A stretch of 64,000 nucleotides of DNA from Branchiostoma lanceolatum (Eukaryota; Chordata; Leptocardii; Amphioxiformes; Branchiostomatidae). The stretch is taken from positions 9,491,501 through 9,555,500 of the forward strand of contig NC_089726.1 in the NCBI RefSeq assembly GCF_035083965.1, read 5' to 3'. The position numbers were made by a program, and so were the translations under genes. Positions 5,708-17,100 of the stretch are shown in pieces. The notes beneath the pieces are model-generated. The model was not told the origin of the DNA. It made no database searches and saw nothing but the letters and a program-made list of their open reading frames with translations. Within the stretch, counting starts at the first letter, position 1, and each line of letters opens with the position of its first letter.

Positions 5708-8700
5708 ATGGCCCTCACGTTCATCGTCATATGTGCCATTTTCACTATTGGAGGTGAGGCACATGGTATATCATGATTCATAGTAGGTGTGGAATTATGG
5801 AAGAACACTGGTCTATTCTTAATTTGAATACTAAGAAAAACAATGGCAACAACAGCAACATTTCTTTTATCAAATTTTGAACACCACAGTGACGGGTGCC
5901 GTCGACCCATGGACTACAACTGGTGATTTGAGCAGGCTTTTGAATGACCATTTCGGGGACAACCGCCATCATGTCACCAACCCTGCTGCCAAATCTGCTG
6001 CGGTTAATTTCATAGAAAACACTTTCAAGGGCTACGGCATGCAGGTAGTCAATGAGGACTTCGACACAGACAACCCAAACGTAAGGATATTTCAAGTTTT
6101 TGTGTCCTTGAAATTTACGTTTCTTCTTTATTCTTCTTCTAAGGTACCCCTAGATGATCCCAACATGGGCAAAGTAGGGAGAAGGGGAGGCCCCGGGCTA
6201 GAGCGGGCAGATTTCACTCTTAATCATATCACTGTTGTTACTACATGAGTTTTTTTGTTCAAAAACCAATCATCACAGCTCTTTTGTGAAAATCTTAGAA
6301 AACGAAGATGAAGTCTTACTCCCCCGGAAAGGTTTCCTGTGCCGTAGGTTTATTGGCCCTTTGCTTCGTTTTTTCTGTACACAGAATAATTGTCTGGTGA
6401 TTAATCACACATCGGTACAACCAGCAACATATCATAACAACAGTCACTTGGCGAGCTCACCTATTTAATGGAACGCCATGGGCCAAACGTAGCATTTGGT
6501 AGAGGCTAATTCTGTAGAGCAGTTTAAAGTTAGGGTAGCCCATCATTATGGCTACGCTTGGGCAACATCTCGAGCCCACTATACTAGTGGTGGTGGTACC
6601 AGAAAGAAAGTGATGCGTGAAAACAAAAATAGGTAAGGTGAAGTGATACATGTGTGTATATGATACCACACAAGGGTCTAATACTGTCCCTAGAGATGGA
6701 CAGGGGTGGAGTAGACATAATGATTGGCTACTCTAACTTTAAACTGCTCTACAGAATTAGCACTCCCCTATGACTTGTGCCCCGTGAGGGATTTTACTTA
6801 GAACCGCATAGATGTAGATAGGTTTAACATGTAAACATAGATGATATGTTGTAGTCGCACAGAGATGTGATATGTGTGCATCATAAACAAGTTATGATTG
6901 GGATTTAACGCCCTAATCGCTTTCTTTGTGCTTGCATCAGTGCTGATGATGATTGAAGGGGGAGGGGTATATGGTCGAGAGACTCTATTTAAAAATGTGC
7001 CTTTTTGTTCCAGTTTAGAGGCAAAAATGTAGTAGGAATGTGGCCGGGTCGCCTGACCGGGACGCGGCTGGACAGACCCATCGTGCTGACAGCTCACTAC
7101 GATAGTCGACGAGACAGGGCTGCGGTCCAAGACAACGGGTCCGGTCTGGCCGCCCTCATGGAGGCCGCTCGGCTCATCACATCCCAGCCCTGCGTGCAGG
7201 AATACCTGGTCGTGTTTGCTGCGCTTGACTTTGAGTTTGACGAGGGTCCAGGTAAACCGCTGCAATAATGCCACTGTCACAAAGTAGATAACTTGATCGG
7301 TCGACGATTCTGCGAGCTCTAAATTATCATGATATGCCCGGTGACGCGCGATTTTCAAAGATCGGCCGATGTTCGCAGGTATTGGAGTCACATCCAATGT
7401 GACAGGGTGCCGTTTCAAGCGAAAAATACGCTCAACCCTCTGTCAATTTCAAACATGACCCGCCCGTGGTGTATATGGTGTCATAACGTCTTGTCATCAC
7501 GATGAGGTGGTTATAGCAAATGACCAGGCGTTTTAATATGACATCAAATACACCGAGGGATAGGCGGGTCATTAAAAAATAATAACGTTATTACCATATA
7601 GCCTATCCTAACTGACCCATATAAGAGTAACGAATTCCTGTATGACGCATATATCCCTTAATACTATACATGTAAATACATTTGTCCAATTTTTTAGAAA
7701 TGCATTTGAAAGTTTGTTCTTGTCCTTTTTGTACAGAAGATTAAAGACTTCATCTTGAAACCAAAATTTCAAAGAAAATATTTCATAACATTGCAATCTT
7801 TACATGTCAAATCATTTTCAAATCGACTCTACTCTACATATGATAATTCACAAATATATGCAACCTTATTTATAACATCATTTAGAGAAAGATACGTGAC
7901 TTAAAACTCGCGTATGCATTGTATATTGTTTTGATCATGATGGTATCATAATTGATGAACATAGCACAGGAATCTTGCAATACCATTCATGACTTTGAAT
8001 GAAAGTGGCTTCTTTGTGACATTATTCTTGACTAGAGCAATATTCCTTACCACAGATTTCGACAACGCAGCGTGTTATAACGGGTACTGTGGGAGTAAAG
8101 ATTTCGTTGATCAGGTCATGGCCCGGTATCTTGATTCTGTTGGCGTCAACGTTGCCAACATCAACGGCGTCATCATCTTAGACTCCATCCTCAACTTTAA
8201 TGACACCCTAGGGGCACAGTCACTTCCCGAGACCTTCAAACAGGTGAGCCATAACACTATCAGCTAGCATGCGATAAAAACAATGGTTGGGGCTATAACC
8301 AAAAAGGATATGATGTCACGGTGTCAACGTTCGATAGTTGACCAATAAACATGTCGCCAACAAATAAAAATAATCATTATAATAATAAAAAGACTGTAGC
8401 TAGGATCATGATAAACGCGGCATGAAGGCTTCAATAACTTTCCTCAAATATAAAATCATTGTATTTCTGGCAGGTTCCTGGCTTAAAGGAGGGGTACGAG
8501 AGTGTAGAACAGGACGGCTTCCGGGGAAACTTCATCTTAGTGGCCGGCCGACAGGAGTACGACTTCCCGCTGTACTCGGCGTTCTACAACAGGTGGGACG
8601 CGGCCGGACATCCTCAGTACAAACGGCAGGTAGGAAGGAAATATAACTTACAAATTACAATGCTATTGCAGATGTTTTCATCTTACAGGGCATGTTATAC

Positions 8701-17100: not shown

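Follow-up and report, generated by a model that had tools for sequence, protein, structure and literature searches.

Among membrane proteins with an M28-like ectodomain, nicastrin and nicalin are type I single-pass proteins of one unit each, and PSMA/GCP2 and the transferrin receptor (M28B) are type II proteins in which a single unit is accompanied by PA and dimerisation domains. In somatic ACE, a member of family M2, both units are active. The available text of PMC2647162 likens the nicastrin ectodomain to aminopeptidases. In the ACE gene exons 4–11 and 17–24 form a pair of duplicated blocks whose phases and lengths are conserved, and the promoter of the testicular form lies in intron 12 (PMC3568152, available part). 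Carboxypeptidase D contains repeated peptidase units, one of them inactive, and a C-terminal helix (PMC11266112, available part). Among the papers listed in searches of the open-access literature, no description of a tandem M28 protein was found.

The putative tandem M28 gene described here lies in a 64-kb stretch of lancelet DNA, the whole of which is referred to as the window. With nicastrin and nicalin its product would have an M28-like ectodomain in common (single there, tandem here), and with PSMA/GCP2 and the transferrin receptor an M28 fold on a membrane anchor. Duplication of an exon block with kept phases, together with a C-terminal anchor, is a feature of somatic ACE as well, where an internal promoter gives a one-unit form; the ACE peptidase family is unrelated to M28. 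Carboxypeptidase D (M14) resembles the predicted lancelet product in its signal peptide, repeated units and C-terminal helix but has three units and belongs to an unrelated family.

Structure of the gene

The sequence from 5600 to 17200 was read, exons were set by eye and then joined by script, giving a spliced gene on the forward strand (5708–17100) of 21 exons and 3084 nt that encodes 1027 residues and ends with a stop codon at 17098–17100. GT–AG borders are present in 20 of 20 introns. The 21 exons joined in frame to 1027 residues in the initial annotation were thus reproduced exactly. The gene is made up as follows.

5708–5753, forward strand: exon 1, start codon and signal-peptide-like segment, ending in phase 1
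5890–9341, forward strand: exons 2–7, M28 core of unit 1, residues 16–372 (exon joining; Pfam)
9544–10280, forward strand: exons 8–10, C-terminal module of unit 1, about 120 residues (no family found in Pfam or PDB)
10281–11418, forward strand: intron 10, junction of units 1 and 2 (exon joining)
11419–14922, forward strand: exons 11–16, M28 core of unit 2, residues 495–851 (exon joining; Pfam, 2e-15)
15049–16540, forward strand: exons 17–19, C-terminal module of unit 2 (exon joining)
16714–16828, forward strand: exon 20, predicted membrane helix at about residues 984–1006, then a basic stop (hydropathy)
17046–17100, forward strand: exon 21, end of the coding sequence, with a short basic tail and the stop codon (exon joining)

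The ATG of exon 1 has G at −3 and G at +4. Intron 13 contains about 500 nt of TA/GA simple repeats (12900–13398).

Duplication of a nine-exon block

Exons 2–10 and 11–19 form a repeated block that is in phase 1 at both ends and can therefore be duplicated without a break in the reading frame. Intron phases are equal in all nine exon pairs, and the lengths of the paired exons (unit 1/unit 2) are 191/191, 238/244, 188/191, 156/156, 151/148, 147/141, 174/168, 86/86 and 106/106. The matching phases and the four pairs of equal length (191, 156, 86 and 106) had already led to the proposal that the gene arose by internal duplication of nine exons, and this origin is supported by the phases, by the lengths and by 45% identity between the units over 483 alignment columns. 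Judged from these alignments, the homology of the two units exceeds chance. Identity at codon positions 1, 2 and 3 is 61, 69 and 41%, respectively, and the NG86 method gave dN 0.47 and dS 2.24 over 473 codons (dS is close to saturation, so that dN/dS between the units is only rough). The codon-position pattern and the NG86 values show that both units have been under coding constraint and have evolved as protein, long after the duplication. When both units were used in tblastn against the 64-kb window only this gene was matched credibly, with no third unit or paralogue; one further hit, at 22368–22135 (E = 0.33), was rejected as chance.

Relationship to the M28 family

Both units match Pfam Peptidase_M28, in agreement with the two M28-like units of the initial annotation: unit 1 with 50.1 bits (3.7e-13, residues 84–209, model positions 1–101 of 193) and unit 2 with 57.5 bits (2e-15, model positions 7–108 of 193), both above the gathering score of 21.3. 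In the Pfam scan of both units this was the sole family above cutoff, with no PA or TfR dimerisation domain; unit 2 also matched three models for membrane segments (Podoplanin and the helices of the insulin receptor and ErbB1), weakly and in each case below cutoff. Among solved structures, bacterial aminopeptidases come closest in sequence, 1cp7 being matched at 2.8e-4 by unit 1 and at 5.5e-7 by unit 2. Nicalin appeared only weakly in a PDB search with a two-sequence profile (E = 0.051) and the Pfam models of nicastrin and nicalin gave no match to either unit at E up to 10, which places the gene outside the nicastrin/nicalin group as defined by sequence.

Bacterial relatives were collected by tblastn of plasmids, which gave 25 records at E ≤ 0.01; eight were taken and six were aligned, L005 (annotated CDS of only 366 nt) and L006 (no annotation) being omitted. 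The L006 reading frame has AHYDS, DDNASG and SDH motifs. With hhalign the A1 profile matched the six bacterial M28 proteins at 99.6% (E = 1.5e-24, columns 7–314 of 479), and in the full-length MAFFT alignment both units align over the core with the same six proteins, so that by either method the similarity extends past the N-terminal half. The bacterial secreted M28 aminopeptidases (1cp7, 6hc6 and the Streptomyces plasmid proteins L001, L002 and L008) share with the units a fold family and the AHxDS, DNxSG, RGxF and FW..IxAxxxTDT region, but the bacterial records aligned consist of a single unit with no C-terminal helix, have all five metal ligands and contain no introns. Two pattern scans of prokaryote genome contigs (146 and 162 pattern matches) yielded none that tblastn confirmed, which is weak evidence of absence since the patterns were short and family-specific. 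By sequence, the gene product is an M28 homologue and not an established M28 peptidase.

Metal-binding and catalytic residues

The metal ligands of 1amp at sites 1–5 are His97, Asp117, Glu152, Asp179 and His256 (PMC7522609, Table 1), and in the available text of the same source Zn1 is bound by sites 2, 3 and 5 and Zn2 by sites 1, 2 and 4. The sites of the two lancelet units were mapped by alignment to the six bacterial M28 proteins and read against this table. The site 1 His (His107 in unit 1, His588 in unit 2) and the site 4 Asp (Asp201, Asp683) are kept in both units; site 2 is Asp119 in unit 1, and in unit 2 Glu600 replaces the bridging Asp. The site 5 His, which belongs to the C-terminal YHxxxD motif and is invariant in the six aligned bacterial sequences (H308), is missing from both units, and there is no His within residues 316–360 of unit 1 or 796–840 of unit 2.

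The assignment of site 3 depends on the register. In the straight register (hhalign) it is Phe in unit 1 and Cys in unit 2, whereas in the MAFFT alignment Glu156 and Glu637, conserved in both units, fall opposite the site 3 Glu of two bacterial sequences, which implies an insertion of two residues in front of them. The general base, the residue directly before site 3 (Glu151 of 1amp), corresponds in unit 1 to Glu153 or, in the other register, to Asp155, and in unit 2 to Gln634 or Gly636, so that unit 2 has no base either way. If Glu156 is site 3, unit 1 keeps four of the five ligands as well as the base, and because of this ambiguity unit 1 might be an unusual active enzyme. Neither unit has the five-ligand set of a competent two-metal M28 enzyme, site 5 being absent from both and site 2 being Glu in unit 2. 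What the alignments allow us to state safely is that both units are without site 5 and unit 2 is without the base, and a peptidase-dead ectodomain seems likelier than an enzyme. As the loss of site 5 is common to both units, catalysis would have been abolished or altered either ahead of the duplication or on two occasions afterwards.

Membrane anchor and C-terminal modules

In a 19-residue scan hydropathy exceeded 1.5 at two places only, the N-terminus (starts 1–6) and starts 976–992, where it peaked at 3.12. The N-terminal segment is signal-like and the C-terminal peak is the only strong one towards that end, in agreement with the signal peptide and single membrane helix previously proposed; the short basic tail is likewise present, in exon 21. 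The 1027-residue protein contains 17 cysteines and nine N-X-S/T sequons, all of the latter outside the helix and tail, which is in keeping with a secretory protein, and the predicted topology is type I. A type I tandem M28 protein had been called unusual in the initial annotation; since nicastrin and nicalin are already type I, the topology is no novelty and only the tandem part of that statement stands. The gene differs from M28B proteins in having no PA or dimerisation domains (Pfam) and in that its strong helix is C-terminal rather than N-terminal.

The last approximately 120 residues of each unit gave no Pfam match at E up to 10, and a PDB match to the C-terminal module (E = 0.68) was taken as chance. 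These modules are 33% identical between units 1 and 2, below the figure for the whole units.

Intron 10

The exon 10 donor (CAGGTACGT) is near consensus and is the second highest of 20, at 10.62 bits leave-one-out with a matrix derived from the same gene's own donors; the exon 11 acceptor is mid-range at 5.8 bits and its phase matches the end of exon 10. Read-through of exon 10 soon ends, at a stop two codons on (SDSTGT*), and could thus yield unit 1 by itself as a secreted protein. Seven phase-compatible acceptors in intron 10 score at least 4, and a terminal exon starting at any of the seven would lack a clear helix, the highest 19-residue mean being 1.46. Poly(A) signals are uninformative about a gene end, since AATAAA or ATTAAA is present in several introns. 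Two further features lie within the intron.

11237–11279, forward strand: candidate alternative first exon, 43 nt, signal-peptide-like, phase 1, with donor TACGTAAAG (4.54 bits)
about 10993–11082, forward strand: decayed copy in which the 3′ end of exon 10 is repeated together with the donor GT (ungapped 41 nt at 11042–11082, 76% identity)

The initial annotation had set against its single gene the prospect of an independent exon with a signal peptide before 11419, and the candidate at 11237–11279 would be such an exon, with a poor start context (T at −3, C at +4). It sits 139 nt before exon 11, compared with 136 nt between exon 1 and exon 2, and is of similar length to exon 1 (43 vs 46 nt). 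With thresholds that were chosen when exon 1 was already known, 3 of 2000 dinucleotide shuffles of intron 10 held a candidate with a donor of at least 4 and KD9 of at least 3.18 (the exon 1 value), and none of 2000 did so at the candidate's own values. On both strands of the 64 kb there are three signal-peptide-like sites with KD9 ≥ 3.0, including exon 1 and the candidate, and the other 19 introns (7171 nt) contain no such exon at KD9 ≥ 2.5. The hydrophobic run of the candidate is broken by an Arg, and ATGs at 11230 and 11233, upstream of its start, open an overlapping reading frame. The exon 1/intron 1 region does not resemble the corresponding part of intron 10, the comparison being equalled in 96 of 300 shuffles, nor does the start of intron 10 resemble intron 19 (152 of 300). 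The candidate could be functional, could be left over from a duplication of the whole gene or could have arisen by chance.

The copy of exon 10 also has a longer gapped match, and its score of 43 was reached in none of 500 mononucleotide and one of 1000 dinucleotide shuffles (best of 40 other windows, 26); a stop codon lies in frame upstream of it, as read from the sequence. This relic indicates that intron 10 was rearranged after the units had formed. A 24-nt match to the helix exon within intron 10 (score 33 vs shuffle mean 21) was reached by one of 1000 dinucleotide shuffles and 2 of 40 other windows and was rejected. Just past exon 10, at 10310–10338, is a 13-nt inverted repeat without mismatches and with a loop of 3 nt (CATGGTCTCCGGA/TCCGGAGACCATG), which is followed by several TTCGGCTGG-like repeats.

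Neighbouring genes

In the neighbourhood, ten reading frames, from 340 retained out of 386, were scanned against Pfam. Four frames at 20048–26223 on the forward strand match COesterase (1e-30, 1.6e-32, 3.5e-25 and 8.2e-8), and as those at 20048 and 22135 both match the start of the family the tandem array probably comprises two or more carboxylesterase-like genes. On the reverse strand two exon-like frames at 32213–35141 carry two parts of a Forkhead domain, which we take to resemble that of FoxN1/4. Matches to F-box (35955–37385, forward strand, 1.5e-9) and to the C-terminal part of UvrD helicase (49403–49903, forward strand, 4.3e-7) suggest a single FBH1-like F-box helicase gene. Galactose-3-O-sulfotransferase was matched at 52117–52947 on the reverse strand (9.5e-26) and at 63290–64000 on the forward strand (2.1e-24).

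Discussion

The explanation that we favour, with slightly more confidence than doubt, is that one gene produces one type I tandem M28 pseudoenzyme that acts by binding. Its product would enter the secretory pathway behind a signal peptide; each of its two M28-fold units would carry on its C-terminal side the module of about 120 residues that was assigned to no family, and one membrane helix and a short basic tail would complete the protein. Duplication of the nine-exon block, in phase 1 at either end, would have generated the tandem. The ectodomain, most likely peptidase-dead, would use the former peptidase clefts to bind a partner or ligand, and one metal might be held at sites 1, 2 and 4. 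We place rather little confidence in a more elaborate version, in which both units have lost site 5 and perhaps site 3 while keeping sites 1, 2 and 4, hold a single structural metal or none and form the double cleft of a ligand-binding receptor, and an ACE-like internal start gives a one-unit form in addition. Such a set of sites would be the opposite of that in one-zinc glutaminyl cyclases, where sites 2, 3 and 5 are used.

It is unlikely that two tandem genes are present instead, a secreted unit 1 and a single-unit type I protein starting at 11237–11279; unit 1 would then end in a small exon that escaped notice or by reading on past exon 10. In favour of this, the phase of the candidate exon is right, its length and following intron are much like those of exon 1, and it is rare in shuffled sequence, in the other introns and in the 64 kb as a whole, subject to thresholds that were fixed after exon 1 had been seen. 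In the available text of PMC4967905 lancelet gene mispredictions are many and include fusions of neighbours disproved by ESTs, in one of which the ESTs supplied the signal peptide of the downstream gene. Against this the start context is weak, with upstream ATGs and an Arg in the hydrophobic stretch, the surrounding DNA is unlike the exon 1/intron 1 region, and intron 10 holds no convincing copy of the helix exon. The strong exon 10 donor, moreover, requires a partner; an idle donor should have decayed at dS of about 2.2, which speaks for one protein. So do the reading frame maintained through 21 exons with 20 GT–AG introns and the seven intron 10 acceptors, none of which leads into a clear helix.

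The candidate exon would equally serve a gene with two products, in which a second promoter within intron 10 gives a short type I form of one unit beside the long protein of two units, a situation for which the internal promoter of testicular ACE is a precedent (PMC3568152, available part); given the poor start context we consider this quite improbable. It is very unlikely that the protein is an active tandem ectoenzyme with unit 1 as a working aminopeptidase and unit 2 as a regulatory unit: unit 1 does keep His107, Asp119, Glu153, Asp201 and perhaps Glu156, but the His of site 5, which none of the six bacterial sequences lacks, is gone from both units.

If, as in the single-gene pseudoenzyme that we favour, both units are in one chain, the M28-like membrane proteins acquire a tandem representative, and M28 becomes a third peptidase fold, with M2 (ACE) and M14 (carboxypeptidase D), in which duplication of an exon block has led to a multi-unit anchored ectodomain. 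Intron 10 illustrates how easily a false fusion could arise for such a gene, and the loss of site 5 shared by both units makes a binding function testable.
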